Shown here one piece after another: positions 22,663-53,084 of a stretch of 64,000 bases of DNA; the stretch's first letter is position 1, and the number at the start of each line of letters is the position of its first letter. The stretch is from a virus. Under the pieces are notes generated by a model. It was not told the origin of the DNA and did not search any database. It saw only the letters and a program-made list of their open reading frames with translations. Location of the stretch: the IMG/VR virus record IMGVR_UViG_3300046464_000188, positions 16,391-80,390 of that record. One strand, 5' to 3'. The position numbers were made by a program, and so were the translations under genes.

Positions 22663-23250
22663 ATGCTTATACCAACAGTAATAGAAACAACAGGTCGCGG
22701 TGAACGTGCATACGACATTTACAGTCGTTTGCTTAAAGATCGAATTGTAATGCTTAATGGCGAAGTTAACGATCATTCAGCTCAATTAGTAGTAGCACAA
22801 ATGCTATTTTGTGAGTCACAAAACAACGCAGAAGATATTAATTTTTATATCAATAGTCCTGGAGGTGCAGTAACATCAGGTCTTGCAATTTATGATACGA
22901 TGCAATTTATTAAATCTCCAGTAAGTACAATCGTAATAGGGCAGGCTTGTAGTATGGGTAGTTTCCTTGCAATGGCAGGTGAGCCAGGTAAACGTAATAT
23001 ATTACCTAATGCTAGAACTATGATACACCAACCAAGTGGTGGTGCAGGTGGGCAGGCTACTGACATGGAAATACAAGTAAAAGAGATTATTAAAATAAAA
23101 GAAAATTTAACAAAAATCTATGAAAAGCATAATACTGCTAATAAGTCGTATGATGAACTATCAAAAGCTATGGAGAGAGACAATTATCTAAGTGCAGACG
23201 AGGCAGTTGCCTTTGGTTTAGCAGATAAAGTAGTTTCTCGCAAAACATAG
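22663..23250 (+). CDS. clpP: ATP-dependent Clp protease proteolytic subunit (ClpP)
   Basis: 195-aa serine protease with the full triad: Ser97 (GQACSMGSF), His122 ([10 protein letters not shown]) and Asp173 (MERDNYLSA). The [17 protein letters not shown] and ADKVV segments are standard ClpP. It would form the 14-mer chamber served by ClpX and ClpA. The phage encodes both of these, with IGF docking loops (25917 and 50823), so a phage-specific or hybrid protease is possible. Phage ClpP alone is also known as a prohead protease in other groups; here the intact ATPases argue for true Clp function. ATG follows AGGAGATAAA. Confidence 0.95.
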
Positions 23251-23327
23251 TAGTTTTTAAATCTTAAATATTGAATAAATACATGGCATAGACTATATCT
23301 ATGTTATTAAAAGAAATGTGAAATTAT

Positions 23328-23687
23328 ATGTATACCTATAATGCTAGATTAATTAGAGTAATAGATGGAGATACTGTAGATTTAGAAATAGATCTAGGGT
23401 TTGATTTATCTGTTAGACAACGACTAAAGTTGTATGGAGTTGGTACTCCAGATAGCAGATCCGCTGACTCTAATACTAAACAAAAAGGTTTAGAAGCAAA
23501 ACAACGTTTAACAGAATTGTTACCAAGACAGTTTAAAATTATTACTATCCTTAATAAGCGAGGAAAGTATGGTAGAGTGTTAGGAACTATATTCATAACA
23601 GAAAAAGACACAGGTAAAGAAGTAAACGTTAACGAACTGATGGTCACAGAAGGCCATGCAGTAAAGTATACTATTCAAGGGAAATAA
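23328..23687 (+). CDS. SNase-like nuclease, cytoplasmic, with altered metal-site residue
   Basis: A 119-aa thermonuclease-fold protein without a signal peptide. ARLIRVIDGDTVDLEIDLG and RLKLYGVGTPDSR match the family, as does YGRVLGTIF. The position usually held by Asp in GVDTPE (a calcium ligand) is Gly here (GVGTPD), so activity may be reduced or use a different ligand (the next Asp). A Glu in KGLEAKQRL may serve as the general base. It lies between clpP and the coiled-coil membrane protein; AATAAATA at 23274-23281 is a weak late-promoter match. Confidence 0.82.
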   Translation: MYTYNARLIRVIDGDTVDLEIDLGFDLSVRQRLKLYGVGTPDSRSADSNTKQKGLEAKQRLTELLPRQFKIITILNKRGKYGRVLGTIFITEKDTGKEVNVNELMVTEGHAVKYTIQGK

Positions 23688-23690: not shown

Positions 23691-25481
23691 ATGAGGTATT
23701 TTGGTTATTGGACAATATTAGTGGCTCTGGCAATTAGTGCAGTAGCGGCCTACTACAGTATCGTTGGCTTGGTTGCTATATTCTCCGCGGCTATGATACC
23801 TATTATTATCATGGGTTCCGTACTAGAAATTGGTAAACTAACGTCGGCAGTATGGTTACATTTACATTGGCGACAGGCACCCATTCTTATTAGAACGTAT
23901 CTCTCCGTGGCAGTACTGTTGCTCATGTTTATCACGAGTATGGGTATATTTGGCTTTTTAAGTAAAGCTCATATCCAGCAAACAAGTCTAGCCACAGAGA
24001 ACGTAGCTCAAATAGAGATTATAGAAGACAGTATTGTTAGAATTAAACAAGATGTAGTTAGATTTGAGACAAAGATTTCAAACTTTGAAAATAAAGATGA
24101 TAAAATTGATACTACAATACAAGATAAAATTAATCAAGAGCAAGAAAGAATTAATACTGCATATGATGGTGTTAATCCTTCTATTGAAGAATTAAATGAA
24201 CGTATAGAAAAGCAATTAGCTGATAGAGAAAAAACTATAGAGCCATACACTCGTGAATTAGATAAAATTCAAAAAGACTTAGAACTAATAGATATGTATG
24301 TAGCAACAGAAAATATTAAGAAGCTACAAGGCATGATTGGTGCTAGACAAGATGGTAGATATGGTAGTAGAACTGCTAAAGCAGTTAAAGAGTTTAGACA
24401 AGCTAAAGATGAACGTAAAGACGAAATTTTAAAAATTATAAACAACATAAAAACACAAGAAGATCCAGTAATTGTTGATGCTAGAAATGAGATCAAGAGA
24501 CTAAGAGCACTAGCTGAACAACAAATTGCTGACTCAAATGAGTTAATTACTAGACTCAGAGCACAATTAGGCCAGGGACAGGTTGAAGATAGTACAGAAG
24601 AAATAATTGCATTAAGAGATAATATCAAAGCATCTAATGTAGAGCTTGGCGATCTATATAGCAAGAAAATTGCGTTAGAAGGCGAAAGCAGACAATTAGA
24701 AGCAGAAGTTGGCCCGGTTAAATACATTGCAGAATTAATTTACGGTGACGAAGCAACAAGAAATATGTTAGAAGATGCCGTTAGATTTGTTATGTTAATT
24801 CTTGTTTGTGTTTTCGATCCGTTGGCCATTGTACTTGTTATCTCAGGTATTATATTGGTAGAAAGGTATCCCAGGCCGGGCAAGAAAACAAAAATCTTAA
24901 ATGAAAAAACAGTACAAGAAGAACAAACTGAATCTAGCGAAGACAGCAACATCAGAGAAGATGATACAGATATTGAGATCGAGCCAGAGACTACCAAAGA
25001 GTCTGATGTACAAGATAAAGTTTTGGAACAAACACTCGAAATAGCAGAAAAAATTCAAGAAGAAGATAAAGAAATTCTTGAGGCACTTGCTAAAGATACT
25101 GAATCAGAAGGATATCTTGAATCTAAAGATACTCCACCAGAAATTTTTAAAGACGAGAAGGGTGAAGAATATACAGTAGACATTAAAACCGGCGAACGTA
25201 AGTATGTAGTCAACAAGGTTCAATGGGAACTAAATAGTAAAGAGAGATCAGCGGCAAAGAAAGAAAAAAAAGAATTAGTAAATAAAATTGTTGCTGAAAT
25301 GAAAAGCACCGGAAGTTGGCCAGGTACAAGTTATATGGAAGGCGAAGGTGTTGTTAAAAAGAAAATTGAACAAATATTTGCTGATGATGCATCTTTAGAA
25401 CTAAAAGAACTTATATCAAGAGCAGATGAAAAAGTATTACAAGAAGTGTATAACACAATATTAAAAGATATTAAGAAATGA
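23691..25481 (+). CDS. large membrane protein with coiled coil and peptidoglycan-binding-like motif
   Basis: A 596-aa protein. Three or four N-terminal hydrophobic segments (residues 1-90, including VLEIGKLTSAVWLHLHW) are followed by a long coiled coil (about 100-345). Within it is a short unit LQGMIGARQDGRYGSRTAKA, which matches the peptidoglycan-binding repeat type (LQ..LG...DGxYGxxT..A). One more membrane pair follows at about 365-390 and then an acidic, Lys-rich tail. Proteins of this architecture occur in marine T4-like phages; the role may be envelope anchoring or superinfection control. It ends in an ATGA overlap with the next gene. Confidence 0.72.
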   Translation: MRYFGYWTILVALAISAVAAYYSIVGLVAIFSAAMIPIIIMGSVLEIGKLTSAVWLHLHWRQAPILIRTYLSVAVLLLMFITSMGIFGFLSKAHIQQTSLATENVAQIEIIEDSIVRIKQDVVRFETKISNFENKDDKIDTTIQDKINQEQERINTAYDGVNPSIEELNERIEKQLADREKTIEPYTRELDKIQKDLELIDMYVATENIKKLQGMIGARQDGRYGSRTAKAVKEFRQAKDERKDEILKIINNIKTQEDPVIVDARNEIKRLRALAEQQIADSNELITRLRAQLGQGQVEDSTEEIIALRDNIKASNVELGDLYSKKIALEGESRQLEAEVGPVKYIAELIYGDEATRNMLEDAVRFVMLILVCVFDPLAIVLVISGIILVERYPRPGKKTKILNEKTVQEEQTESSEDSNIREDDTDIEIEPETTKESDVQDKVLEQTLEIAEKIQEEDKEILEALAKDTESEGYLESKDTPPEIFKDEKGEEYTVDIKTGERKYVVNKVQWELNSKERSAAKKEKKELVNKIVAEMKSTGSWPGTSYMEGEGVVKKKIEQIFADDASLELKELISRADEKVLQEVYNTILKDIKK

Positions 25482-25930
25482 AATTAGACAATAGTTCTTA
25501 CACAGTCACACCTCCTGATTTAATGTTGACTGAACACGGTGTAAGTGTACTAATAACCAGTACCAATCAAAAGTTAATAACAAAAGTAAAAGATATATTT
25601 GAAAAATATATTGCAACAAGCATTGTATTCTATATACAAAATAAACTAACTAACTCAAATACCCTACCATGGCTATGGAACGTATCAAAAACTTGTGAAT
25701 TTATGATTATTGATCTTGATACCTGTGCAGAAGCAGATATAATTGCAGGATTAATGAAACCAAGAGACGATGAAAAAGTTGTACTGTTTTACAGTGATAA
25801 GTACACTAGAAGAGATACGATAAAACTAATAAACGCAACAGGCGAAAATTTAGTAGTCACTAAGATGGAAGATGTACATAACTATATAAGGTTACAAATG
25901 AACCCAGAGTATTTTGATGAGACCAAATGA
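25478..25930 (+). CDS. hypothetical protein, alpha/beta
   Basis: A 150-aa protein in an ATGA overlap with the membrane protein and a 14-base overlap with clpX. Strands such as HGVSVLITST, EFMIIDLDT and EKVVLFYSD alternate with helices, as in a small Rossmann or receiver-like fold. There is no phospho-acceptor triad of the usual type. Translational coupling to clpX suggests it could be an adaptor or partner of ClpX, but this is only positional. Confidence 0.62.
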   Translation: MKLDNSSYTVTPPDLMLTEHGVSVLITSTNQKLITKVKDIFEKYIATSIVFYIQNKLTNSNTLPWLWNVSKTCEFMIIDLDTCAEADIIAGLMKPRDDEKVVLFYSDKYTRRDTIKLINATGENLVVTKMEDVHNYIRLQMNPEYFDETK

Positions 25931-27128
25931 TATAATCTGCAATTTTTGCGGAAAAGGTAGAAACCAAGTAAAAAAATTATTAGCAGGTGAAAATGCTATG
26001 CACATTTGTTCTGATTGTGTAGAGTTATGTCACGGCATATTACAGAACAATGAAATTAAAATAGAAAATACAATAGAAAAGAAATTTAATCTTCCTACAC
26101 CTAGAGAAATACACAAGCATTTAGATGATTATGTTATAAGTCAAGATAAAGCAAAGAAAACTTTAAGTGTAGCAGTTTATAATCATTATAGAAGAATTAC
26201 ATCAGATACAAAAACAAAATTACAAAAAGGAAATGTGTTTATTGCAGGTCCTACAGGAACTGGTAAAACATTAATGGCACAAACACTAGCCAATCATTTA
26301 GATGTTCCATTTGTTGTAACAGATGCTACAGTTATTACCGAAAGCGGTTATGCAGGAGAAGATGCAGAAGTATTAATACATAAATTATTTCAAGCGGCAG
26401 ATTACAACGTAGAAAGAGCAGAACGTGGTATAATTTATGTTGACGAAATAGATAAAAAAGCAAAACGTAATGACTTTGTAAGTTTAAGTAGAGATGTAAG
26501 TGGTGAAGGAGTTCAGCAAAGTTTATTAAAGCTAATAGAAGGTAGTAAAGTAACAGTACCTAATAAGCCTCAAAGTAATCCAGAAAAAGTAATTGTTGAT
26601 ACAACCAATATATTGTTTATTGTTGGTGGTGCATTTGTTGGTTTAGAAGAAGTAGTTGCTAATAGACTTGGTAAATCAAAAATAGGCTTTAATGGTGAAG
26701 AAGGTCATAAGATAGAAAATTGGACAGAGTACTTACAAACCAAAGACTTGGTAAAGTATGGATTAATACCAGAATTTATTGGTAGGTTTGCAAGTACCAA
26801 CGTATTATCCCATCTAAGCAAAGAAGACTTGGTAAAGATATTAACAGAACCAAAAGATGCTATTGTAGAGCAAATTAAAGAATTATTTTTACTTGACAAA
26901 ATACAAATAGAGTTTAAAATGGAAGCATTGGAAGAGGTAGCAGACATAGCAATAAAAGAAGAAATAGGGGCCAGAGGGTTGCGTAAGATACTTGATGGTG
27001 CATTACTTGAATTACAATATAGGTTACCAGAAATGTCCAGTGAAGGTATAAACAAAATTATTATTACAAAAGATGTTATTTCTAAAAACGCAGAACCCCA
27101 TTACATTAAGAGCACCAATGCAAAATAG
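25917..27128 (+). CDS. clpX: ATP-dependent Clp protease ATPase subunit ClpX
   Basis: 403-aa AAA+ unfoldase, close to full length. Zinc-binding N domain: Cys8 and Cys11 (CNFC), Cys31 and Cys34 (CSDC). Walker A GPTGTGKT (111-118), pore loop GYAGED (144-149; usual GYVG), Walker B GIIYVDEIDK (171-180), and the ClpP-docking tripeptide IGF (256-258) in LGKSKIGFNG. Sensor 2 is EIGARGLRKI. All activity and docking residues are kept. ATG 25917 is preferred to TTG 25914. It overlaps the infC start by 11 bases, tying protein unfolding to translation initiation in one transcript. Confidence 0.95.
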   Translation: MRPNDIICNFCGKGRNQVKKLLAGENAMHICSDCVELCHGILQNNEIKIENTIEKKFNLPTPREIHKHLDDYVISQDKAKKTLSVAVYNHYRRITSDTKTKLQKGNVFIAGPTGTGKTLMAQTLANHLDVPFVVTDATVITESGYAGEDAEVLIHKLFQAADYNVERAERGIIYVDEIDKKAKRNDFVSLSRDVSGEGVQQSLLKLIEGSKVTVPNKPQSNPEKVIVDTTNILFIVGGAFVGLEEVVANRLGKSKIGFNGEEGHKIENWTEYLQTKDLVKYGLIPEFIGRFASTNVLSHLSKEDLVKILTEPKDAIVEQIKELFLLDKIQIEFKMEALEEVADIAIKEEIGARGLRKILDGALLELQYRLPEMSSEGINKIIITKDVISKNAEPHYIKSTNAK

Positions 27129-27639
27129 GAATTTTAGAAGAAGAGATACAAAACCTTTGTATACTGCAAATGAACGTATTAAATTTGCAGAAATACGAGT
27201 TTCCTTTCCAGATGGCGATAGTCAGGTCATGTCTACAAAGGAAGCCTTAGCAAAAGCAAAAGAAATGGAGTTAGATTTAGTACTAATAGCTGAAAAAGCT
27301 CAGCCACCAGTATGCAGAATTATCGCACTCAATAAACATTTGTATGAGCTAAAGCAAAAACAAAAGCTGGCTAAAAAGAAACAACGCGAAAGCATTGTAG
27401 AAATTAAGGAAATACGAATGGGTGTAAACATTGATATCCATGATTTGGAAACAAAAGCTAATATGGCTCGTAAATTCTTAGATAAAAATAACAAACTAAC
27501 AGTTATGGTGACAATGAAAGGCAGAGAACGTGGCAGACCTGAGTCCGCTAAAGAAGTGCTAAATAAGTTTGCAGAAAAACTTAATATCAAATTTGAACAT
27601 ATTAGTGTTCAAAGTCACAGAGTAACTGGAAAAACATAG
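27118..27639 (+). CDS. infC: translation initiation factor IF-3
   Basis: 173 aa, full length compared with about 180 in bacteria. The N domain (TANERIKFAEIRVSFPDG, ALAKAKEMELDLVLIAE, PPVCRII) and C domain (KEIRMGVNIDIHDLETKANM, VMVTMKGRERGRPE) are intact. IF-3 keeps the 30S subunit free and checks the start codon. The start is ATG 27118, inside the end of clpX. A phage-made IF-3 could favour phage mRNAs; many genes here start with GTG or TTG and one may start with ATA. It is followed seven bases on by bS21. Confidence 0.95.
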   Translation: MQNRNFRRRDTKPLYTANERIKFAEIRVSFPDGDSQVMSTKEALAKAKEMELDLVLIAEKAQPPVCRIIALNKHLYELKQKQKLAKKKQRESIVEIKEIRMGVNIDIHDLETKANMARKFLDKNNKLTVMVTMKGRERGRPESAKEVLNKFAEKLNIKFEHISVQSHRVTGKT

Positions 27640-27646: not shown

Positions 27647-27928
27647 ATGGCATATAATAAAAACTATACAAAAAATTGGCAGTCAAATGATAGACGGCCT
27701 ACTAGACGTGACGATCAACCCAAAGTAAAAGGTTTAACTGTTGAAGTTAGAAACGGAAACCTTGAACAAGCTATGAGAAGACTTAAAAAGATGATAGCAA
27801 AAGAAGGTATAATGCAAGAAGTTCGTGACCGTAGACACTTTGTAAGTAACACGGAAAAAAGAATCAAAGCAGAAGCGGCTGGTAAAGCTAGACATCGTAG
27901 ACGAATTGCTATGGACAAACCAAAATAG
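27647..27928 (+). CDS. rpsU: ribosomal protein bS21
   Basis: 93-aa basic protein with the bS21 core (LTVEVRNGNLEQAMRRLKKM, then VRDRRHFVSNTEKR) and a basic N-terminal extension (MAYNKNYTKNWQSNDRRPTR). bS21 sits by the anti-Shine-Dalgarno on the 30S platform and is exchangeable; phage copies are known from marine and huge phages and are thought to steer initiation. Here it follows infC directly, so the two initiation components are made together. Confidence 0.93.
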   Translation: MAYNKNYTKNWQSNDRRPTRRDDQPKVKGLTVEVRNGNLEQAMRRLKKMIAKEGIMQEVRDRRHFVSNTEKRIKAEAAGKARHRRRIAMDKPK

Positions 27929-27960: not shown

Positions 27961-28263
27961 ATGACAAGAACTCAGACAAGTGATGTAGCAGAGATTACAA
28001 AGTTAAAATCTCCACCTAAGTATTGTGTAATACTACTCAATGACGATTCTACACCTATGGAATTTGTTATTAATATATGCCAAACTATTTTTAATAAAAC
28101 AAAAACAAAAGCAGAAGCTATTACGTTAGAAGTACATAAAAAAGGTAAAGGTGTAGCAGGCACCTATAGCTACGAAGTAGCAGAACAAAAATGCGTAGAA
28201 ACTGTAACAGAAGCCAGAAGAAATGGTTTTCCTTTAGATGTTACATTAGAAAAAACAGAGTAA
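27961..28263 (+). CDS. clpS: Clp protease adaptor ClpS
   Basis: 100-aa adaptor that brings N-end-rule substrates to ClpA. The core YCVILLNDDSTPMEFV contains the Asn27-Asp28-Asp29 pocket and Met33; His59 in LEVHKKGKGVAG completes the N-degron site, and the AEQKC...AR helix is in place. Everything needed for binding seems intact. ClpS works only with ClpA, and ClpA is encoded 22 kb downstream, so the pair has been kept together in the genome though not in one operon. ATG follows AGGAAGG. Confidence 0.93.
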   Translation: MTRTQTSDVAEITKLKSPPKYCVILLNDDSTPMEFVINICQTIFNKTKTKAEAITLEVHKKGKGVAGTYSYEVAEQKCVETVTEARRNGFPLDVTLEKTE

Positions 28264-28274: not shown

Positions 28275-28844
28275 ATGAAAATAGCAATCACGCAACGTGT
28301 GATTGACTTTCGAAACGGTCCATATGACAGCATAGATCACGGATTTTATGATATGTTCAATGGACATACTTTACGGCCTATTCCAAATCACTTAGATCAT
28401 TATCAAACAGATTTAATAGTCAGTAGCGATATTATAGTGTTCACAGGTGGCAATAGCATGATACCCGGAAATTGGCAGTACAATGAAAATAGATTAAGAG
28501 TCGAAAAGCACACGTTAGATTTAGCAAGACTGTACAACAAACCTATTTTAGGAATAAGTAGAGGTTGCCAATTCTTAACTACTAGCCTAGGAGGCAGTAT
28601 TAAAGAAAATGGTAGACATACTCACGATCATATCGTATATTATAATGATAGTGAAGTTAAAGTTTGTAGTAGGCACGAAGAAGTATTAGATAAGATACCT
28701 GCAGGTGCCACTTGTTTAGCTACAGATGAAGATGGTAATTGCGAAAGTTGGAAGTTAGATAACATTATAACAGTATTATGGCACCCAGAAAGAATGAATA
28801 CACATTGGTTACCATATGAAGCATACGGAATATTAGGAATATAA
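28275..28844 (+). CDS. class I glutamine amidotransferase-like (peptidase C26) protein with Ser in place of the Cys nucleophile
   Basis: 189 aa. The family nucleophile elbow, normally GICRGxQ, reads GISRGCQ: Ser stands where Cys is expected and a Cys appears three residues later. The C-terminal VLWHPER (His-x-Glu of the triad) and a FTGGNSMIPG loop are kept. It is either a serine-type variant or a binding protein without hydrolysis. The fold is strongly supported; the reaction is not. It could act on gamma-glutamyl compounds. It precedes a membrane protein and a cytidylyltransferase. Confidence 0.75.
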   Translation: MKIAITQRVIDFRNGPYDSIDHGFYDMFNGHTLRPIPNHLDHYQTDLIVSSDIIVFTGGNSMIPGNWQYNENRLRVEKHTLDLARLYNKPILGISRGCQFLTTSLGGSIKENGRHTHDHIVYYNDSEVKVCSRHEEVLDKIPAGATCLATDEDGNCESWKLDNIITVLWHPERMNTHWLPYEAYGILGI

Positions 28845-29120
28845 ATGACAAAAATATTAAATTTTTTTAAAGAAAGCTATGCTAAAGATAGGCTAGCCTT
28901 TTATGCAGAAATAGTAGAGACAACAGTTCTCATTATGGCAAGTGCAATATTAAGTTTTACAATACTTGACCCTGCTACAGAAATTTTTATTCCATTATAT
29001 TTGGTAGGTAGTATACTTGCAGTATTCAGTACATACAGACGTGGTAGTAGTGCAGTTGTACTATGTACGTGGTTTACTCTAATGAACGGCTGGGCTTTTA
29101 TACAGTTGTTTATATTATAA
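28845..29120 (+). CDS. small membrane protein, three helices
   Basis: 91 aa with hydrophobic segments VETTVLIMASAILSFTI, IFIPLYLVGSILAVFS and AVVLCTWFTLMNGWAFIQLF, and a YRRGSS loop. The size and layout are like the 11921 protein and other mini-PnuC/YgjV-like proteins of marine phages. It begins directly at the previous stop. Function unknown. Confidence 0.68.
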   Translation: MTKILNFFKESYAKDRLAFYAEIVETTVLIMASAILSFTILDPATEIFIPLYLVGSILAVFSTYRRGSSAVVLCTWFTLMNGWAFIQLFIL

Positions 29121-29131
29121 GGATTATTTAA

Positions 29132-29560
29132 ATGAAAATAGGATTTACTTGTTCAACATTTGATTTACTACACGCCGGGCATATTGCTATGTTGCGAGAA
29201 GCTAAGGCACAATGTGATTATTTAATAGTAGGACTACAAACAGATCCTACAATAAGTAGACCAACAAAGAATTCACCTATACAAACAGTAGTAGAAAGAT
29301 ATACACAATTAAAAGCAGTAGGGTATGTAGATGAAATAATTCCATATACTACTGAACAAGATTTAGAAGATATACTTTCTATGTATAATATTAATGTACG
29401 AGTATTAGGTGAAGAATATAAAGAAAAAGATTTTACAGGAAAAGATATCTGTAAACAGAGAGATATTTCTCTATACTTTAATAAACGAGACCATAGATTC
29501 AGTTCAACAGAATTGAGGCAACGGGTTAACACAAAGGAAATGAAAAATGAGAGTGCGTGA
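29132..29560 (+). CDS. cytidylyltransferase-family protein (glycerol-3-phosphate type)
   Basis: 142-aa nucleotidyltransferase with the HxGH motif (HAGH, residues 14-17) after FTCSTFDLL, a LIVGLQTDP strand, a QTVVERYTQL helix and the FSSTELRQRV block near the end, which corresponds to the RTxGIST motif. It would join CTP to glycerol-3-phosphate or a similar small phosphate and release CDP-alcohol. In this context it may serve capsule or teichoic-type modification of the surface, along with the sulfotransferase-like proteins, but the substrate is inferred. Confidence 0.85.
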   Translation: MKIGFTCSTFDLLHAGHIAMLREAKAQCDYLIVGLQTDPTISRPTKNSPIQTVVERYTQLKAVGYVDEIIPYTTEQDLEDILSMYNINVRVLGEEYKEKDFTGKDICKQRDISLYFNKRDHRFSSTELRQRVNTKEMKNESA

Positions 29561-30668
29561 AGAAGTTAAACTAAATTTTGAAGATGTATTAATGGAACCA
29601 AAACGTTCTACACTATCAAGTAGACGTGATGTACAAATGACTAGAAAGTTTACATTCCGAAACTCTGGTAAAGTGATTGACTTCTGCCCTATATTTGCTA
29701 GTAATATGGATGGTGTAGGTACGTTTGAAGTTGCTAAAGTATTACAAGAACACAAAATGATGACTGTAATTACAAAAAGTACAACACTAGATGAATGGAA
29801 AGCGGCCGCAGGTACAGGTTTACGTTTACAGAGTGTAAGTGTATGTACAGGAACAAATCGTATGTACGATCCAGACGCAGAAGATTATTCCAATATGCAG
29901 GCAGTATTAAAATCATTTCCTGATGTAAAAATGATTACTGTTGATGTTGCCAATGCTTATCACGAGAATTTTGTAGACTTTATTAAAATGGTAAGAGAAG
30001 AATATCCAGATAAAGTTATTGTAGCAGGCAACGTAGTAACTCCAGAAATGGTAGAAGAACTAATTATAAATGGTGCTGACGTAGTTAAAATTGGTATTGG
30101 GCCTGGATCAGTATGTACTACAAGAACAATGACAGGTATTGGAGTACCACAGTTTTCAGCTATATTAGAATGTGCAGATGCGGCAAATGGCGTTGATGGA
30201 CATATTATGGCAGATGGTGGTTGTGTACATCCAGGAGATATTGCTAAAGCACTTGGCGGTGGAGCTCATATGGTAATGATTGGTGGAATGTTAGCTGGTC
30301 ATAAAGAAGGTGGTGGTAATATTATTACTAAACATACTGCTACTGGTGGAGCTCATAAGCTAGATAATGGAACATATGTTCCACACTTTGAAGAACAACA
30401 GTTTGTTGAGTTTTATGGTATGAGCTCAGATCGTGCTAGAGAGAAACATGGCAAACGAAAAGATGGCTATAGAGGGAATGAAGGTAGACATATTGTTATG
30501 CCTTATAGAGGACCTATTAACGATACAGTAGAAAACATACTAGGTGGAGTTAGATCTGCGGCTACTTACATTGGAGCAAGGCGTTTAAAAGATATGCCAA
30601 AATGTGCAACATTTGTAAGAACGCATAATGTCATCAACAGAACTTACGAACAATTCACTGTAAAATAA
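29547..30668 (+). CDS. guaC: GMP reductase
   Basis: 373-aa TIM-barrel enzyme of the IMPDH/GMPR family, without a CBS domain. The catalytic loop KIGIGPGSVCTTRTMTGIG has Cys190, and the active-site Thr follows. ADGGCVHPGDIAKALGGGAH and GGMLAGHKE bind phosphate and ring. The C-terminal part (ILGGVRSAATYIGARRLKD) is that of GMP reductase and not IMPDH. It converts GMP to IMP with NADPH, which rebalances purines for an AT-rich phage genome. It starts inside the previous gene by 14 bases. Confidence 0.92.
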   Translation: MRVREEVKLNFEDVLMEPKRSTLSSRRDVQMTRKFTFRNSGKVIDFCPIFASNMDGVGTFEVAKVLQEHKMMTVITKSTTLDEWKAAAGTGLRLQSVSVCTGTNRMYDPDAEDYSNMQAVLKSFPDVKMITVDVANAYHENFVDFIKMVREEYPDKVIVAGNVVTPEMVEELIINGADVVKIGIGPGSVCTTRTMTGIGVPQFSAILECADAANGVDGHIMADGGCVHPGDIAKALGGGAHMVMIGGMLAGHKEGGGNIITKHTATGGAHKLDNGTYVPHFEEQQFVEFYGMSSDRAREKHGKRKDGYRGNEGRHIVMPYRGPINDTVENILGGVRSAATYIGARRLKDMPKCATFVRTHNVINRTYEQFTVK

Positions 30669-33553: not shown

Positions 33554-33940
33554 TTATCTTTTAACTTTAGTTTTAACTTTTAATGAGGACATAGGCTCAT
33601 TTGTTTTAGGGTTTATACTGCATTCTTTTACACATACTTTAGGAGGATTATCGCTATTCCAGCCTGGATGCCATATATCATTATTGTAAAAATCAGACTC
33701 TAATATTTCGTCAAAGCTATATTTTTTTAAATTATTAAAATCTTGATCTTTGTTTACCTGTTTTACAAATCTTGGATCTTCTGTTAGTATTTTCACACTA
33801 GTACTTTCTGGTTCTCGTTGACTACGATCCCATTGGTTAGCAAAAAAACAGCAAGGCCATACTCTACCTTCAGGAGTTACTTCCCAACTTCTTATATTCT
33901 TTTTTTCGTTCCATACCATACATTTTATATTACATCTCAT
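33554..33940 (-). CDS. SPASM-like C-terminal part of a split radical-SAM protein
   Basis: 128 aa from ATG 33940, which shares ATGA with the stop of the upstream radical-SAM gene. Cysteines are clustered as in auxiliary Fe-S (SPASM/twitch) domains: MRCNIKCMVW, EVTPEGRVWPCC and KVCVKECSINP. No CxxxCxxC core is present. It is clearly the missing C-terminal half of the 33937-34560 protein. The reading frames differ by -1, so gene fission, a frameshift or translational coupling are all possible. Confidence 0.68.
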   Translation of the reverse strand: MRCNIKCMVWNEKKNIRSWEVTPEGRVWPCCFFANQWDRSQREPESTSVKILTEDPRFVKQVNKDQDFNNLKKYSFDEILESDFYNNDIWHPGWNSDNPPKVCVKECSINPKTNEPMSSLKVKTKVKR

Positions 33941-34560
33941 ATTGTTTCCAAAAGTTCCTGTGCTAAATTTGTATCTGATGGACTTATAAGACCCCATTTT
34001 CTTCTATTCCATTTAAATTTAATTTCGCATGGCATATCTTTTGCTATTTGATTTGCTAAAGGAATTTCAGTCCAGTTCCATGAAAATATAAGATATTCCC
34101 ATCTGCCTTTTCCACCATTTTGAAAATAACTTTTCATATTATCCATAGCACGATTCCAATCAACACCTTCTCTATATTTCCAATTGGTGTCATGATTTGC
34201 TCCATCTACACAAAATTGTATTGAAACTTTTTTTCCATACGTTTCTGCTATATGTTTGTACCAATTAGGTTTACGTAAAGCACCGTTGGTATAAATTTCT
34301 ATTCTTCTACAATGCGATATTCCTACTTTTATAAATTCGTCTATATCTGGATGCATACAAGGATCTCCATACTCTCCACAAAATTCTATTACATCTAATT
34401 CCTTGTTTTTGTTTTCAACAACATTTTTAAATAAATTAATGTCCATATGCTCTAGTTTTAATCCATCAATTGGTTTTCCTGTATCTATATTAGTACGAGC
34501 ACAAGATCTGCACCTTGCTTGGCAATAAGTTGTAAGAGCAAAATCAATAGAATGTTTCAT
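33937..34560 (-). CDS. radical-SAM core protein, split from its SPASM part
   Basis: 207 aa. The SAM cluster motif CxxxCxxC is TYCQARCRSCART near the N terminus; EFCGEYGDPCMHPD stands for the GGEP-like strand and IEIYTNGALRKP for the next beta strand. The core ends after the sixth strand (FKWNRRKWGLISP) and the frame closes at TGA 33937-33939, where the SPASM-like gene begins. It is one of four radical-SAM loci in this window. The start is ATG 34560. The substrate is unknown; SPASM enzymes often act on peptides or sugars. Confidence 0.8.
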   Translation of the reverse strand: MKHSIDFALTTYCQARCRSCARTNIDTGKPIDGLKLEHMDINLFKNVVENKNKELDVIEFCGEYGDPCMHPDIDEFIKVGISHCRRIEIYTNGALRKPNWYKHIAETYGKKVSIQFCVDGANHDTNWKYREGVDWNRAMDNMKSYFQNGGKGRWEYLIFSWNWTEIPLANQIAKDMPCEIKFKWNRRKWGLISPSDTNLAQELLETI

Positions 34561-35212: not shown

Positions 35213-35713
35213 TTGAAAAAAATAAAAGATACATACGATAATTTTTTTAAATGGGTTAAAGGTACTGAGTTAGTAGAACTAACTGACATAGATGTTTCCG
35301 AAGATCCTGTAAGACCTGAATTAACACTTGAATGGAGATTAGATGCCTCAAGAAAAATTTATGGTTTAAAATACGAGGATGATGTAGAAGCAATAGTTTG
35401 TGTAGCATACACTAATGAAGTACCTATTACAGTTAGAGAAATGGACTATATGAGTCAGGTAGCCTGCCAGGATGGCCAACTTGGTTCTATTGCAATAGCC
35501 TATACAGTATGGTCAAGAAAAAGAGGAGCAGGTAAAGAAATCATTAATAAGCTATATGAGTTTTTACGTAGTGAAAGATTAGCAACAAAAAGGTTGGTAA
35601 CATTATCTCCACTTACACCAATGGCAACACATTTCCATATTAAGAATGGTGCCAAACAAATCAGCATAAACGATACAACACAAAACTTTGAGTATAAATT
35701 GGTTGACAATTAA
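35213..35713 (+). CDS. GNAT-family acetyltransferase-like protein
   Basis: 166 aa starting with TTG 35213 after AAAGAG. The motif-A region (IAIAYTVWSRKRGAGKEIIN) has the strand-loop-helix with R-x-x-G-x-G/K that binds acetyl-CoA, and THFHIKNGAKQI matches the last GNAT strand-helix. The acceptor is unknown; phages use such enzymes to modify host RNA polymerase or toxins. The tmRNA promoter lies in its last codons. Confidence 0.75.
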   Translation: MKKIKDTYDNFFKWVKGTELVELTDIDVSEDPVRPELTLEWRLDASRKIYGLKYEDDVEAIVCVAYTNEVPITVREMDYMSQVACQDGQLGSIAIAYTVWSRKRGAGKEIINKLYEFLRSERLATKRLVTLSPLTPMATHFHIKNGAKQISINDTTQNFEYKLVDN

Positions 35714-35730
35714 ACTTTTACGTGTATAAA
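35703..35730 (+). promoter_or_regulatory. sigma-70 promoter for tmRNA, overlapping a late-type box
   Basis: TTGACA (35703-35708), a 16-base spacer, TATAAA (35725-35730). The same place reads TATAAATA (35725-35732), the T4 late octamer, so tmRNA may be made both early and late. Confidence 0.8.
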
Positions 35731-35734
35731 TATA

Positions 35735-36066
35735 CATTGTGGACGTTGAAGCGACTTGAAGATATTATGGACCTCGGGGCAGTACCGAGCACCTCCACCA
35801 TAAAAGCATTGGAAAGAAAATGATAGTATTTGATTTACTTGGCTATGTGATACTGGCAAATTTTATTGCTAGTGCTTTTATGATGGGGGTGAACTAGGAT
35901 CGACAGGTATTGTATGGAAGTGGAGTTTACCGGGTGATTACGTTATTGATCAAACTTTATAAACGCAGAAGATAATTTTGCTATAGCGGCCTAATTTAGG
36001 CACGTAGGGGTGGGAACTACCTGGCAACAGAAGTGCCACTGAATTCTTTAGAACTCAGTACTACAA
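35735..36066 (+). ncRNA. ssrA: transfer-messenger RNA, circularly permuted two-piece type
   Basis: The acceptor piece comes first: a T-arm (CTCGG-GGCAGTA-CCGAG) and CACCTCC-A-CCA ending at 35800. An intervening segment follows (35801-35884), flanked by AAAAGCA and TGCTTTT that extend the stem. Then the coding piece starts at 35885 with GGGGGTG, which pairs with CACCTCC, and GAACTAGGATCGACAGG, the conserved tmRNA 5' region. The tag frame ends ...AEDNFAIAA-stop (GCA 35965, TAA 35992-35994); its first codon is uncertain. The order is the alphaproteobacterial form. The outer limits are approximate. The Ala-Ala end is the ClpXP degron. Confidence 0.9.
35820..35897 (+). CDS. possible microprotein nested in the tmRNA intervening segment
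   Basis: ATG 35820 stands five bases behind GGAAAG. The 25-residue product MIVFDLLGYVILANFIASAF plus MMGVN is a neat membrane helix and ends with the TAG inside the coding-piece 5' region. It covers almost exactly the segment cut out between the two RNA pieces. It may be chance, but ribosome site, start and hydrophobic helix coincide. Confidence 0.35.
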   Translation: MIVFDLLGYVILANFIASAFMMGVN

Positions 36067-36090
36067 AAAGATAAATTTCTTATCTTTATA
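36067..36090 (+). terminator. weak intrinsic terminator after tmRNA
   Basis: AAAGATAA (36067-36074) pairs with TTATCTTT (36080-36087), with A-run before and T after. It lies in the 5' leader of the outer-membrane protein gene, so some read-through is likely. Confidence 0.6.
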
Positions 36091-42657: not shown

Positions 42658-43845
42658 TTGACTAAAGCAATTCACAGCACTAGTTGGTGTCCTATACCGT
42701 TTAATGCTATTTCGTTTCACCCAACTGGTTCGTTGACTCGTTGTATGATGAGTGATGTTCCAATGGGTGAAACTTTTGACAGTCCTCAGATGCAGAAATT
42801 GCGTCAGGATATGTTAGATGGCACCTGGGATAAAGAAGGGTGCATGACTTGTTGGAAAAAAGAACAACAAGGAAATATAAGTCAAAGACAAAAATGGTTA
42901 CAACGTAACCCACAAGATTTTAAAAACACAGATGGATTTATAAATCCAAAAACAACAGGCAATCCTGTTAATCACCTTTTTATTAATTACAGTAATATTT
43001 GTAATTTTAAATGTAGAATGTGTGGACCAAATTATAGCAACAGTTTGATTCCAGAACATAAGCATCTTCATTCATTGGGATTAGGTAAAAAAGTAAAAAC
43101 AGAAACTATTAAAAATAGAAATTTTATTAATACGTATCTAAGACAGAAACCTGAAAGTTTAAAAGATGTAACAAGTATATGGATAACAGGTGGCGAACCT
43201 CTTATGGACAATAACTGTTATGACTTAATTGATATATTAGCTGAACATGGTAATGAATCACAAACAGATATGGTTATTACTACAAATGGTTCTAAAGTAG
43301 ATTTAGACAAATTACAAAAGTTTGAGAATTTAAAATTCTTTGAATTAGATTTAAGTATTGATGCACCTAATATTATGTTTGAGTATATGCGTAGTGCAGG
43401 CATATTTACTTGGGAACAAATGAATAAGTTAATTGATGATTTAACTCATTTTAAGAAACAGAATAGCAGTTGGTTCCATATGTGTTTTAATGCTAGTATA
43501 CAAGCATATAACTACGATACAGTACTTGAATTTGACTCAATATGTAGACAAGCAGGAGCATTGAATAATACTAGAATGTTAATATTTCCAGAACATTTTA
43601 GACTCAATGTATTACCTTATAAATATAGGAAAGAACAATTTGATAAAATCAAAGATTATGAAGTAATAAACGATCCAAGATTTAAAAGAACCCATTCTGA
43701 TATATGTAAGAATATGCTTCAACAACAAGCATCAGATGAGGTAGTTAAAAAGTTTAAACAACAAACTATAGCACAAGATAAGTACAGAAATATGAATATA
43801 GAAAACTTTCATTCACAGTTAGCGGAGTTTATACATGAAGGATAA
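42658..43845 (+). CDS. radical-SAM protein with auxiliary cluster, paralogue 1
   Basis: 395 aa starting with TTG 42658 after AGGA. Core motif SNICNFKCRMCGP (CxxxCxxC); GGEPLM follows and TTNGSKVD is the next strand. An N-terminal cysteine region (SWCPIPF, TRCMMSD, GCMTCWKKE) suggests a twitch/SPASM-type auxiliary Fe-S site placed before the core. It is followed by a tandem paralogue (43835) with an 11-base overlap. Enzymes of this layout are widespread in marine phage genomes; substrates are unknown, peptide or sugar chemistry being likely. Confidence 0.85.
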   Translation: MTKAIHSTSWCPIPFNAISFHPTGSLTRCMMSDVPMGETFDSPQMQKLRQDMLDGTWDKEGCMTCWKKEQQGNISQRQKWLQRNPQDFKNTDGFINPKTTGNPVNHLFINYSNICNFKCRMCGPNYSNSLIPEHKHLHSLGLGKKVKTETIKNRNFINTYLRQKPESLKDVTSIWITGGEPLMDNNCYDLIDILAEHGNESQTDMVITTNGSKVDLDKLQKFENLKFFELDLSIDAPNIMFEYMRSAGIFTWEQMNKLIDDLTHFKKQNSSWFHMCFNASIQAYNYDTVLEFDSICRQAGALNNTRMLIFPEHFRLNVLPYKYRKEQFDKIKDYEVINDPRFKRTHSDICKNMLQQQASDEVVKKFKQQTIAQDKYRNMNIENFHSQLAEFIHEG

Positions 43846-45142
43846 TACCGATGGACTGTGGAGGTTTGATCCAAAAAAACACGTTATACCAGCTGATGAA
43901 ATAGAAACAAAAGTCGTTGAAAATGACCAATGGAAAAATTTGCACAGTAAAAGTTGGTGTCCTATTCCATTCAATACAATAAGCTGGCATCCTAGTGGAC
44001 ACATATCAAGATGTATGATGAGTGACGACAATATGGGTACTCATTATGATAGTGAACATATGCAAAGATTAAGAAAAGATATGTTGGCTGGTAAATGGGA
44101 TACATATGGATGCACTAGCTGTCTCAATAAAGAGAAAAAAGGTTATCGTAGTCAACGTATGAATTGGCTAAGGCATGATCATATTAAAAGGTTAGGAAAT
44201 CCAGAACCGTATACTAAACCAAAATTATTAGATAATCAAATAAGTCATTTGTTTATAAACTTTTCAAATGTATGTAATTTTAAATGTAGAATGTGTAGTG
44301 CAAACTTTAGTAATAGTTTGATACCTGAAAACAAACATATGCTAGAAAAGTTTCCACTTGAATATAAAAAAGTGCCATTTCAAAATCAAAAGAACTTTAA
44401 TGACATCATTGGATATTTAAAAAATAACTTAAATATACTTCCTGGTATAAAAAGTATATGGATGACAGGCGGAGAGCCTTTTATGACTGATGATCCATAC
44501 AAACTTATAGACTTAATTGTAGAACACGGTAAGCCAGAAGAACTTGAAATTACTATTACAACAAATGGATCAAAAATTGATTTTGATAAACTAGGAAAGT
44601 TTAACAAAGTTAAAAAACTTACACTAGATTTAAGTATTGATGCAGTAGGACCTTTGTTTGAATATATGAGAAGTAATAAAGTTTTTACTTGGAGCCAAAT
44701 GGAAGATACTTGTAGGAAATTATTTGAATATAAAAAATTAAACAAAGAGTGGTTTAACTTCTTTATTAATAGCAGTTATCAAATATTTAATTATGATAAC
44801 TTATTAGAATTTTATGACTTTATATACGATCATCAATGCGATAGCAATGTAAGATTGTTACTATTTCCAGAACATTTTAGAGCAGGTAATTTACCTGACA
44901 GATTTAAAGATGAAGCTAGAGCTATGTGTGATAAAATAGAATTAAGATATGGAAATAGAAATGAACATAAAATTCAAATTCTTGATGATATAAGAACTGC
45001 ACTTGATGTAAAAGAACCATATTTGCAAAGAACATTAAACATAGTACCAGAACAAGATAAGTTTAGAGGGGTATACTTATATGATTATCACGAAAAACTA
45101 TCTGAATTAATATATGGACCAAAACAATTATGCCTGTTTTAA
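43835..45142 (+). CDS. radical-SAM protein with auxiliary cluster, paralogue 2
   Basis: 435 aa. Same architecture as paralogue 1: SWCPIPFNTISWHPSG, SRCMMSDDNMG, GCTSCLNKEK, then SNVCNFKCRMCS and MTGGEPFM and TTNGSKID. A 35-residue N-terminal extension is added. Both paralogues have an LLxFPEHFR-type block near the end. The two overlap by 11 bases and 45130 overlaps this gene by 13, so the three are one unit: two radical enzymes and a sulfotransferase-like protein. The duplication may give a heterodimer or two substrate specificities. Confidence 0.85.
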   Translation: MKDNTDGLWRFDPKKHVIPADEIETKVVENDQWKNLHSKSWCPIPFNTISWHPSGHISRCMMSDDNMGTHYDSEHMQRLRKDMLAGKWDTYGCTSCLNKEKKGYRSQRMNWLRHDHIKRLGNPEPYTKPKLLDNQISHLFINFSNVCNFKCRMCSANFSNSLIPENKHMLEKFPLEYKKVPFQNQKNFNDIIGYLKNNLNILPGIKSIWMTGGEPFMTDDPYKLIDLIVEHGKPEELEITITTNGSKIDFDKLGKFNKVKKLTLDLSIDAVGPLFEYMRSNKVFTWSQMEDTCRKLFEYKKLNKEWFNFFINSSYQIFNYDNLLEFYDFIYDHQCDSNVRLLLFPEHFRAGNLPDRFKDEARAMCDKIELRYGNRNEHKIQILDDIRTALDVKEPYLQRTLNIVPEQDKFRGVYLYDYHEKLSELIYGPKQLCLF

Positions 45143-49156: not shown

Positions 49157-49375
49157 ATGGCAAAACAAGAGTCAATTAAATTTTCTGGTTGTGTGTTAGA
49201 CTCGTTACCCGGTTCATTTTTTAAAGTGAAACTAGAAAACGGCCACAACGTAACAGGTGTTATTAGTGGTAAAATCAGAAAAAATAATATCAAAATTTTG
49301 CCTGGCGATAAGGTTGACATAGAAATGTCACCGTATGATCTTAGTAAAGGTCGTATAGTTTTTAGGTATAAATAA
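49157..49375 (+). CDS. infA: translation initiation factor IF-1
   Basis: 72 aa, exactly the usual length. The OB-fold signature is clear: [40 protein letters not shown] and [12 protein letters not shown] match bacterial IF-1 nearly residue for residue. IF-1 fills the 30S A site during initiation and works with IF-3, encoded at 27118 here. A phage IF-1 is very unusual. It lies between two unknown genes and the spanin pair, so it was probably gained separately from infC. Confidence 0.94.
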
Positions 49376-49865: not shown

Positions 49866-50169
49866 TCTTAAAGTACCACAAATACTAAAAGTTGAAACAG
49901 CACCAATAGAAAAACATTCTTTAAAACTACCTAAGGTTGATCAATATGATGCAAGACCTTTGGAGTGGATAGTTCTTACTCCCGAAAACGTAGAAGAAGT
50001 ATTTGCAAAACTAAAAGATAGCAATACTGACCTCGTACTTTTTGCTGTAACAGATGATGGATACCAAAACTTATCGCTTAATATGGCTGATATAATTAAA
50101 TTGGTAAAACAACAAAAATCCATTATAGCGGCTTACGAAAAGTACTTGGACAATGAAGAAGCTCAATAA
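49807..50169 (+). CDS. outer-membrane lipoprotein spanin subunit (Rz1-like)
   Basis: 120 aa from ATG 49807, overlapping the i-spanin by 59 bases. Lipoprotein signal MKNSILIVLMALLALTGCSS with the lipobox LTGC, and a periplasmic part PLEWIVLTPENVEEVFAKLK plus a C-terminal helix. Larger than lambda Rz1 but like the o-spanins of marine T4-like phages. It is followed by the J-domain gene with a 17-base overlap. Confidence 0.8.
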   Translation: MKNSILIVLMALLALTGCSSLKVPQILKVETAPIEKHSLKLPKVDQYDARPLEWIVLTPENVEEVFAKLKDSNTDLVLFAVTDDGYQNLSLNMADIIKLVKQQKSIIAAYEKYLDNEEAQ

Positions 50170-50830
50170 TCCTTGGTATATTCTTGGCGTTGAACCTAAC
50201 GCATCGTTAACTGCGATAAAAAAAGCATATAAAAGATTAGCAATTAGAATGCATCCAGATAAAGGCGGCTCTGTAGCTGATTGGTTACACGTAAGCCAAG
50301 CATATGAGAAAATTATCAAAGGTGATCTTGTTCCTGTTGTTAAAGGTAAAGATGTAAAGTATGTTGATATATACTTAACTATAGCACAACAGATAAAAGG
50401 TTTTCAAGGCTTTGTAGTAATAGATGAAGCAAAAGAATTATATTTAAAAGTAAAAATACCAGCAGGTGCGTTAAGAAATGACAAATTTAAGGTGATGCAC
50501 AACACCAAAAAATATATTATAAATATTAAAGAAAAAGCAGATAAAGTCTTTACAAGACAGGGAAATAATGTTATAGTATACAAGAAATTAGATATAGTAG
50601 ACATAATGAAACAAAAACCATTTGTCATTATATCTCCTTTAGGTGAATATATCGAAGTTCAAATTCCACCAAAAACAGATTCTGGAAGTATAATTGTTGT
50701 CAAAGAACAAGGACTATATAACAGACGAACAAAGAAAAGAGGAAACTTGAGAATTAATGTAAAGGTAAATATTCCTACAGTGAACAAAGATAATGTTAAT
50801 GAAATTATTAAAAGATTAAAAGATGACTGA
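50153..50830 (+). CDS. DnaJ-like co-chaperone
   Basis: 225 aa. J domain at residues 5-60 with the HPD triad (MHPDKGG, residues 34-36) after AIKKAYKRLAI. There is no Gly/Phe or zinc domain; instead the C-terminal 140 residues (for example LYLKVKIPAGALRNDKFKV and YIEVQIPPKTDSGSIIVVKE) resemble the DnaJ/CbpA C-terminal peptide-binding domains. It would stimulate host DnaK for folding phage proteins or deliver clients. It ends eight bases into clpA, so chaperone and unfoldase are made together. Confidence 0.88.
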   Translation: MKKLNNPWYILGVEPNASLTAIKKAYKRLAIRMHPDKGGSVADWLHVSQAYEKIIKGDLVPVVKGKDVKYVDIYLTIAQQIKGFQGFVVIDEAKELYLKVKIPAGALRNDKFKVMHNTKKYIINIKEKADKVFTRQGNNVIVYKKLDIVDIMKQKPFVIISPLGEYIEVQIPPKTDSGSIIVVKEQGLYNRRTKKRGNLRINVKVNIPTVNKDNVNEIIKRLKDD

Positions 50831-53084
50831 TATAGAAAGAATTGTTATAACTGCTATTAACCTAGCAAAGAAATTTAGACACGAGTACGTTACTATTGAA
50901 CATTTAGCGGCTGTAATACTTGATGACCCAGAAGTACAGGCTATGTGCTACGAAGTTCAAGCAGATCACGAACAGTTACAAATTTCATTAGTAAACTATT
51001 TAGAACACGAATGTAAAGAATTAATTAAAAGTAAAAAAGAAGAACCTAATCCATTTAAGACTCAAATGTTAGAAAGAGTTTTTAACAGAGCATTAACTCA
51101 AGCATTGTTCCAAGGTAAAAAAGCAATAAACCAGTTAGATCTAGTATTAAGTATACTAGGTGAAGAACATAGTGTTGCCGCAACATATGCAGACCAATGT
51201 GGACTTAATAAAAATAAAGTTATGGCTTGGATGCAAGATACAGCTCAAGCACAAATTGATACAATATTTACAGCCATGCCTCCAGGAATGGATCCTTATG
51301 GACAACAAGGACCACAAACTCCACTTGCAGTATTAGGTCAATTTTGTAATAACTTAAATGAAGCAAGTCAAGACTTTGATGATGTAATTGGACGTAGAGA
51401 AGTTTTAAGAGACTTGGTTCAAACTGTAGCACGTAAGAAAAAATCAAATGCAATATTAACAGGTGGTAGTGGAGTAGGTAAAACAGCTATTGTTCAAGGA
51501 TTAGCAAAATTAATCGTAGAAGGTAAAGTTCCAGAAGTTATAAAAGGTAAAACAGTATGGGAACTGGATATGACGAAACTAGTAGCTGGTACAAAATACA
51601 GAGGTGACTTTGAAGAACGTATGAAGCAACTAGGTGAAGCATTACAAAAGCAACCAGACATTATTTTATTCATAGATGAAATACATCAAATTATTGGAGC
51701 AGGTAGTACCAACGCATCAATGGATGCAGGTAATATGTTAAAGCCAGCATTAGCAAGTGGTAAACTAAAAGTTATTGGTGCTACAACTGATGAAGAATAT
51801 AGAAGAGTATTTGAAAAAGAAACAGCACTAGCACGTAGATTTACAAAAGTATCTGTAGACGAACCTAGTGTAAAAGATGCTAAAGAAGTATTAACAAATA
51901 CTATAGTTTCTTATGAAGCATATCATGATGTAGAAATTACAGATGAGGCTTGTGAACTAGCAGTTGATTTAAGCCATCAGTATATGTTTAATAAAAAATT
52001 ACCAGATAAAGCATTTGACATTGTTGATAGAGCCTGTGCATATAATAAAATATTACCAGTAAAAGATCGAGTAAAGATTATTGGTATAGATGAAATTAGA
52101 GCAGAAGTTTCTAAACTAACTACAATACCTGAAGAACATTTAGGACTTACAAAAGATAAAGAAATTTCTAAAAAGCATAGTGAAGTAAGAGCATTTTTAG
52201 AAAAAACTGTATTTGGACAACAAGCGGCAATTGATCGTGTAGTTGATAGTATTACAGTTAGTATGGCAGGATTAAAAGATCCTGTTAAACCTATTGCAAG
52301 TTATTTGTTTAGTGGACCAACTGGTGTTGGTAAAACAGAATTAGCAAAAAGATTATCACAAGCAATGACTATGAAACTAGTACGTTATGATATGGCAGAA
52401 TATCAAGAACGTCATACAGTATCAAAACTTATTGGATCACCTCCTGGATATGTAGGGTTTGGAGACGGGAAAGCAGGTGATGGTTTACTAATTACACAAC
52501 TAGAAGATAATCCAAATTGTGTATTATTATTAGACGAAGTAGAAAAAGCACACCCAGACTTAATGAGTGTATTGTTAAGTTTATTAGACGAAGGTACAAT
52601 TACAAGTAGTACTGGTAAAATGGTAAATGCAAAAAATGCAATAATTATTATGACCAGTAACTTAGGTGCCAGAGATGCGTCAATTAAAAGTATAGGTTTC
52701 AATGAAGAAACTTATAATCACAAAGCCGTAGATGAAGCAATAAACAATTACTTCTCGCCTGAATTTCGTAATAGGCTTGATGGTATAGTAAAATTTAATT
52801 CATTATCACGTGAGAACATGAATAGTATTGTTATCAAGTTTTTAAATGAATTAGAAAGTTATGTAGCTCAAAGAAATATAGATATTTCTTGGGGTCCTGC
52901 ATTACAAACTATGCTAGAAGATAAAGGGTATGATCCTCAAATGGGAGCAAGACCTTTAGCAAGACTAATTAACGAAAAAGTAAAACTTCCATTAGCTAAA
53001 TACTTACTAGATATAGATAGTAAGAAAAAGCTCAACTTAAAAGTTGAATGGAAAAAGGACGAGTTAGTGATTAATGGAAAATAA
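50823..53084 (+). CDS. clpA: ATP-dependent Clp protease ATPase subunit ClpA
   Basis: 753 aa (E. coli ClpA 758). N domain 1-145; D1 Walker A GGSGVGKT (214-221) and Walker B ILFIDEIH; D2 Walker A GPTGVGKT (498-505), pore loop GYVGF (about 542-546), Walker B LLLDEVEKAHPD. The long ClpB middle domain is absent, and a ClpP-docking IGF loop (KSIGFNE, 624-626) is present, so this is ClpA and not ClpB. With ClpS (27961) and ClpP (22663) it makes a full N-end-rule protease. It is coupled to the J-domain gene by an eight-base overlap. Confidence 0.94.
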   Translation: MTDIERIVITAINLAKKFRHEYVTIEHLAAVILDDPEVQAMCYEVQADHEQLQISLVNYLEHECKELIKSKKEEPNPFKTQMLERVFNRALTQALFQGKKAINQLDLVLSILGEEHSVAATYADQCGLNKNKVMAWMQDTAQAQIDTIFTAMPPGMDPYGQQGPQTPLAVLGQFCNNLNEASQDFDDVIGRREVLRDLVQTVARKKKSNAILTGGSGVGKTAIVQGLAKLIVEGKVPEVIKGKTVWELDMTKLVAGTKYRGDFEERMKQLGEALQKQPDIILFIDEIHQIIGAGSTNASMDAGNMLKPALASGKLKVIGATTDEEYRRVFEKETALARRFTKVSVDEPSVKDAKEVLTNTIVSYEAYHDVEITDEACELAVDLSHQYMFNKKLPDKAFDIVDRACAYNKILPVKDRVKIIGIDEIRAEVSKLTTIPEEHLGLTKDKEISKKHSEVRAFLEKTVFGQQAAIDRVVDSITVSMAGLKDPVKPIASYLFSGPTGVGKTELAKRLSQAMTMKLVRYDMAEYQERHTVSKLIGSPPGYVGFGDGKAGDGLLITQLEDNPNCVLLLDEVEKAHPDLMSVLLSLLDEGTITSSTGKMVNAKNAIIIMTSNLGARDASIKSIGFNEETYNHKAVDEAINNYFSPEFRNRLDGIVKFNSLSRENMNSIVIKFLNELESYVAQRNIDISWGPALQTMLEDKGYDPQMGARPLARLINEKVKLPLAKYLLDIDSKKKLNLKVEWKKDELVINGK

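Follow-up and report, generated by a model that had tools for sequence, protein, structure and literature searches.

The window analysed here, a stretch of 64,000 nucleotides that comprises bases 16391-80390 of the 80,390-base IMG/VR virus record IMGVR_UViG_3300046464_000188, encodes a set of initiation, ribosome-rescue and Clp components. A reading made from the letters alone (the sequence-only reading) had listed the translation initiation factors IF-3 and IF-1, ribosomal protein bS21, a two-piece transfer-messenger RNA (tmRNA), ClpP, ClpX, ClpS, ClpA and a J-domain protein, along with an IGF docking loop in ClpX and ClpA, a Ser-His-Asp triad in ClpP, an N-degron pocket in ClpS and a tmRNA tag that ends in Ala-Ala. 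All the parts are present and intact according to Pfam, PHROGs, ARAGORN and Rfam, and each of these motifs was seen. The features are given below in window positions.

22663..23250, plus strand: ClpP peptidase, 195 amino acids (Pfam CLP_protease 1.9e-76; triad Ser97-His122-Asp173)
25478..25930, plus strand: g150, a 150-amino-acid protein directly 5' of clpX, overlapping the clpX start
25917..27128, plus strand: ClpX unfoldase (Pfam zf-C4_ClpX 5.5e-14, AAA_2 3e-29; motif survey; tree)
27118..27639, plus strand: IF-3, whose listed open reading frame begins at 27073 (Pfam IF3_N 1.5e-21, IF3_C 4.7e-19)
27647..27928, plus strand: ribosomal protein bS21 with a basic N-terminal extension (Pfam 7e-14)
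27961..28263, plus strand: ClpS N-degron adaptor (Pfam 1e-29; pocket residues)
35708..36085, plus strand: permuted two-piece tmRNA, ssrA (ARAGORN; Rfam RF01849; fold z -5.2)
49157..49375, plus strand: IF-1 (Pfam eIF-1a 1e-22)
50153..50830, plus strand: J-domain co-chaperone with an HPD motif and no zinc domain (Pfam DnaJ 1.4e-9, DnaJ_C 7e-15)
50823..53084, plus strand: ClpA with two AAA modules (Pfam AAA_2 2e-56, AAA_lid_9, ClpB_D2-small; PHROGs phrog_4871 1e-228)

A deviation from the expected motifs was found in ClpX, which probably starts at the ATG at 25917 and contains the N-terminal C4 zinc domain. Scans of IMG/VR gave 59 ClpX loci and 36 ClpA loci. The ClpX clade that holds the window's phage is referred to as clade A; its motif counts cover 34 sequences (33 rows and the window), and its synteny counts are restricted to contigs with room for the gene in question. 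In Escherichia coli ClpX, the ssrA tag is read by six residues, Y153, V154, T199, V202, R228 and H230. The R228A exchange makes the enzyme less specific for an ssrA substrate and more specific for an N-degron substrate, H230A greatly increases the Michaelis constant (KM), and human ClpX, which has Leu at the T199 and H230 positions, fails to degrade ssrA substrates (PMC7652416). Clade A has Ala in place of V154 (GYVG to GYAG, V154A) in 34/34 sequences and Ser in place of T199 (T199S) in 34/34, and the RKH loop is lost, again in 34/34. The site of this loop is three residues shorter in nearly all rows and is occupied by a VPNKPxxxPE-type sequence instead. Y153 and V202 are retained, and so is the IGF ClpP-docking loop (33/33 clade rows and the window). 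V154, T199 and RKH are all intact in the 109/109 bacterial ClpX proteins compared, 79/79 from a general survey and 30/30 from alphaproteobacteria. RKH is retained by the ClpX proteins of clade B, RKN is found at its position in Sinorhizobium phage Phosso and Agrobacterium phage Atu_ph07, and both RKH and T199 are also lost in the PA5oct-like Pseudomonas phage phi30-2. As judged from these alignments, the clade-wide loss of RKH together with V154A and T199S, with the docking loop kept, is the new observation of this work. By its fold, zinc domain and docking loop the clade A protein is still a ClpX; the claim to be lowered is that it reads the ssrA tag.

With its tag-reading residues missing or replaced throughout clade A, ClpX makes a route from tmRNA to phage ClpXP doubtful, and its sequence contradicts the proposed handover of tagged proteins to phage ClpXP. 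The same altered ClpX is encoded by contig G004, in which an Rfam search of 192 kb gave no tmRNA, so that adaptation to a phage tag is not an obvious explanation of the change.

The tmRNA scores 111 bits against the Rfam alpha_tmRNA model (RF01849; gathering score 50), and its folding beats all 100 shuffles. The acceptor piece with CCA occupies 35762-35800, the 5' tRNA domain begins at 35885, and the tag codons lie at 35965-35994. The acceptor stem, read from the sequence as GGGGGUG / CACCUCC-A-CCA, includes an encoded CCA and the G3-U70 alanine identity pair, which is read by alanyl-tRNA synthetase. The resume and tag frame GCA-GAA-GAT-AAT-TTT-GCT-ATA-GCG-GCC-TAA specifies the tag AEDNFAIAA. 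The permuted order, G3-U70, CCA, resume codon and Ala-Ala tag end all agree with an alphaproteobacterial two-piece tmRNA. None of 240 phage proteins has an Ala-Ala C-terminus against 1.1 expected, an avoidance that is not significant. Directly 5' of the tmRNA, at the end of a GNAT-like open reading frame (35600-35700), 101 bases match Pelagibacter phage Mosig at 78% identity, which may be a hint of the host or of gene exchange.

The other Clp components display their expected motifs. ClpP begins at the mature-form sequence, without a propeptide as read from the sequence, and its triad (S97, H122 and D173) is kept in 32/32 relatives. The N-degron residues N27, D28, T31 and H59 are present in the window ClpS; among relatives, the corresponding pocket (NDD..T and the His66 equivalent) has N in 40/41, D in 41/41, T in 41/41 and H in 40/41, and the Met40 equivalent is Met in 26/41 and Gln in 13/41. 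The ClpA pore loops, KYR in D1 and GYVG in D2, are kept in 24/24 clade sequences, and a ClpP-docking loop was found in a test for IGF or IGL, with IGF in the window protein. ClpA has a putative Clp_N domain, the one that binds ClpS, with a match that covers a single repeat (1.1e-5).

For IF-3, the probable start is the ATG at 27118, in an overlap with the stop codon of clpX, given that conservation is missing from the initial part of the listed open reading frame; both N and C domains of IF-3 are present. IF-1 was detected by tblastn in 12/24 relatives. The sequence-only reading had noted that SmpB is not in the window and suggested a genome search for smpB, infB and release factors. In this search, smpB was not found in the whole 80-kb record nor in 14 further records (0/15; relatives up to 221 kb), and neither IF-2 (0/11) nor RF-1-type release factors were found in 11 records, control genomes being positive. 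Absence from the large clade contigs is not proof, because their completeness is not stated, whereas the Phosso and Atu_ph07 genomes are complete. With smpB and IF-2 not found, the phage must borrow host SmpB and IF-2 if its tmRNA and initiation factors work. Of 204 upstream regions, 41 contain the canonical Shine-Dalgarno motif AGGAG, where 4.3 would be expected, and no special initiation signal was found among the 204, so that any preference for phage mRNAs would need another mechanism.

The order ClpP–g150–ClpX–IF-3–bS21–ClpS was found again in about 50 IMG/VR contigs. Within clade A, clpX is preceded by ClpP in 42/42 and g150 in 50/50 loci, and followed by ClpS in 51/51, bS21 in 49/51 and IF-3 in 46/51; DnaJ lies immediately before clpA in 24/24 relatives. 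A 221-kb contig, G001, served as the reference for collinearity, for the ratio of nonsynonymous to synonymous substitution (dN/dS) and for the capsid protein. Its positions 111487-189708 (78 kb) are collinear with nearly the whole record at 81-92% DNA identity, and dN/dS against it is 0.05-0.19 across all nine proteins (0.05 for ClpP), which corresponds to purifying selection. Synteny, collinearity and these ratios together imply that the set is of long standing, maintained and in use. Rather than an isolated case, the near-complete set for initiation, rescue and Clp proteolysis is a trait stably kept across a diverse clade of phages. In a tree of 81 ClpX sequences, clade A forms a single branch with a long stem (Shimodaira-Hasegawa-like approximate likelihood ratio test, 100) outside the 40 bacterial sequences, and the best alphaproteobacterial ClpX match among 385 genomes reaches about 51% identity; the gene was not recently captured from a host.

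g150 overlaps or abuts the clpX start in 50/50 loci. It has no Pfam match and only sub-threshold PHROGs matches, and tblastn found no homologue in 50,697 phage records. Its AlphaFold2 model (predicted local distance difference test, 82; predicted template-modelling score, 0.79) shows an alternating beta-alpha fold. The PDB matches are mostly receiver (REC-like) domains of response regulators, with template-modelling (TM) scores of 0.5-0.58, and include RssB (7lcm), a ClpXP adaptor. However, g150 lacks the acid pair that follows strand 1 in receivers, which weighs against a CpdR- or RssB-like receiver adaptor. The best structural match is viral, a phage 'nucleoside 2-deoxyribosyltransferase like' protein (TM 0.75, 22% identity), and the invariant D81-x5-D87 spacing presumably recalls the D..E pair of the nucleoside-2-deoxyribosyltransferase family. 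A role of g150 as a ClpX adaptor would, on this model, be a guess.

As a whole, the data are best explained, with moderate confidence, by a conserved and largely co-directional initiation and Clp set in which tagged chains go to host ClpXP or to ClpAP and phage ClpX has been retargeted. Phage IF-3, IF-1 and bS21 would join host 30S initiation complexes, and phage tmRNA with host SmpB would release ribosomes stalled on cut or decaying mRNAs. The tagged chains would most likely be destroyed by host ClpXP or by ClpAP, the latter being a possible route because the ClpA pore loops are canonical and its docking loop is kept. Phage ClpA, ClpS and the J-protein may handle N-degron or misfolded substrates. 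Phage ClpX would still dock ClpP and would have turned to substrates other than those with the ssrA tag, perhaps assisted by g150. Every activity and every substrate in this scheme is a prediction, set beside gene identities, synteny, selection and loop changes that were directly observed. Several points weigh against it. T199S by itself costs only about 4-fold in KM (PMC7652416), clade tags still end in Ala-(Leu/Met/Ile)-Ala-Ala, and a compensating tag contact within the new ClpX loop is conceivable. In addition, the tmRNA does not assign a host, as only short conserved core segments were matched, in 49/385 alphaproteobacterial genomes, and no sampled tag is identical; the long stem of clade A leaves its exact placement in the ClpX tree unsure.

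A more specific version of retargeting is possible, though we put it forward tentatively. The clade ClpX, in parallel with that of at least one PA5oct-like phage, may have been stripped of ssrA reading with ClpP docking kept, yielding an unfoldase-protease dedicated to the phage, with a degron of its own and perhaps an adaptor of its own as well (the clpX-coupled g150). It would be orthogonal to host ClpXP, which would keep the trans-translation traffic. The clade offers a testable case for a phage AAA+ protease whose substrate choice drifted from that of the host, and knowledge of its ClpX substrates would show whether proteolysis is a means by which large phages reshape the host proteome, an idea long suspected.

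Alternatively, the Clp parts might serve mainly virion assembly and turnover of phage proteins, unrelated to tmRNA or initiation, with the neighbourhood reflecting shared late expression only. A chaperone or assembly role has been suggested for Atu_ph07 and Rak2-like phages (PMC6102473), Clp genes occur among the neighbours of bS21 and both are found close to structural genes in numerous phages (PMC9723584), and two virion-protein genes lie between PhoH and IF-1. We nevertheless regard this explanation as rather unlikely, given that the tight clpX-IF-3-bS21-ClpS coupling is found again in divergent lineages and that ClpS, an N-degron adaptor, has no known assembly role. Less probable still is the single route of the sequence-only reading, in which phage mRNA is preferred through the phage initiation factors, stalled products receive their tag from phage tmRNA, and their degradation falls to phage ClpXP and ClpAPS. 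All its parts are encoded and conserved together, the tags keep their Ala-Ala end, and the IGF loops and ClpP triad are intact. It is opposed by the loss of the ssrA-reading loop from ClpX, also in G004 where no tmRNA was found, by the lack of smpB in all 15 records and by the canonical Shine-Dalgarno use. Of the rebuilt proteostasis system then proposed, a real, conserved and syntenic phage-encoded set under purifying selection stands; the single route probably does not run through phage ClpXP, and neither the favouring of phage mRNAs nor the clearance of host proteins found support. A chimera of host and phage DNA, or a segment lately captured from a host, is refuted as an explanation: every part has bacterial homologues, but independent contigs are collinear with the region, and its ClpX stands on its own branch at no more than about 51% identity to any from the 385 alphaproteobacterial genomes.

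Apart from retargeting and its rivals, the placement of the phage was approached through G001, which encodes a gp23-type major capsid protein (MCP); the 80-kb record itself has no MCP gene. The nearest MCPs in the phage collection are those of PA5oct-like Pseudomonas jumbo phages, and Klebsiella, Escherichia and Agrobacterium jumbo phages also match, RaK2-type phages among them, so membership of the RaK2/Atu_ph07-type supergroup is read via this collinear relative. Judged by this marker, the window's phage belongs to a branch, not yet cultivated, within the supergroup of T4-type jumbo phages to which Atu_ph07, Phosso, PA5oct and RaK2 belong. The clade contigs are presumably marine, judging by the sample series. 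Window positions 22600-47500 share no DNA with any phage record beyond one tRNA gene. G001 carries an extra Asn-Gly-Met tRNA block (139044-139278) beside the shared tRNA genes, which is absent from the window.

Several neighbouring genes were also noted. Between ClpP and g150 (23691-25481) lies a 596-amino-acid membrane/coiled-coil protein without a confident family, and a related C-terminal segment lies just 5' of clpX in clade B loci L062-L068. ClpS is followed (28275-30668) by GATase-like, RfaE/cytidylyltransferase-like and IMP dehydrogenase/GMP reductase genes (IMPDH 3e-62), which are conserved in most clade A contigs. A ring-hydroxylating/Rieske oxygenase-like protein, unusual in a phage, is encoded at 36784-37863 (Ring_hydroxyl_A 2.8e-6; Rieske 0.02, below the cut-off). 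Two tandem radical-SAM-type paralogues with CxxxCxxC motifs occupy 42658-45142, and a radical-SAM-type pair, one member matching Radical_SAM at 2.9e-7, lies on the minus strand at 33554-34560.

The set is not new in kind, as T4-type rhizobial jumbo phages hold nearly all of it, Phosso according to the present searches and AP-J-162 and Atu_ph07 according to published work. The statement that it was not described for a T4-like phage was wrong in substance, with Atu_ph07, AP-J-162 and the huge phages already published. AP-J-162 has a tmRNA, six Clp open reading frames, clpX beside IF-3, bS21, DnaJ and L7/L12 (PMC11242549), for Atu_ph07, DnaJ and seven Clp-like proteins have been described (PMC6102473), and huge phages are recorded with IF1, IF3, S21, tmRNA and SmpB (PMC7162821). 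Two groups of database entries were set aside. 'Acinetobacter phage MD-2021a' (INPHARED; L313, CAKLQH020000005.1) has tig-clpP-clpX next to a TonB receptor gene; it appears to be bacterial and is therefore better not counted among phages. The Staphylococcus, Listeria, Enterococcus and fecal records marked UNVERIFIED are suspected to be bacterial likewise and were not used as prior art.

In Phosso (PV764938), as in the window, IF-3 comes right after clpX; bS21, ClpS and ribosome recycling factor come next, all inside about 22 kb. DnaJ is again near clpA, in the order DnaJ-deformylase-clpA, and Phosso also has ClpP and a permuted alpha-type tmRNA, with smpB not found. By contrast, its ClpX retains an RKN loop and GYVG, and the recycling factor and peptide deformylase are additional to the window's set. 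Atu_ph07 shares clpX-IF-3, DnaJ-clpA, ClpS and ClpP; unlike in the window, no tmRNA was found, and its ClpX keeps the RKN loop. PA5oct-like Pseudomonas jumbo phages (Arenbergviridae), the nearest by MCP, encode ClpP, ClpX, ClpS and ClpA, but no IF-3 match occurs among the 40 records listed of 97, their ClpX keeps GYVG, and g150 was not found by tblastn. Melnitz, of the SAR11/OM43 myophages, is a T4-type marine phage with a permuted two-piece tmRNA, reported without its own SmpB, but a Clp set is not mentioned in that report (PMC9004378). Phosso and AP-J-162 have genomes of about 470 kb in which the parts are scattered; the window's phage differs from known phages by its compact arrangement and by the clade itself.

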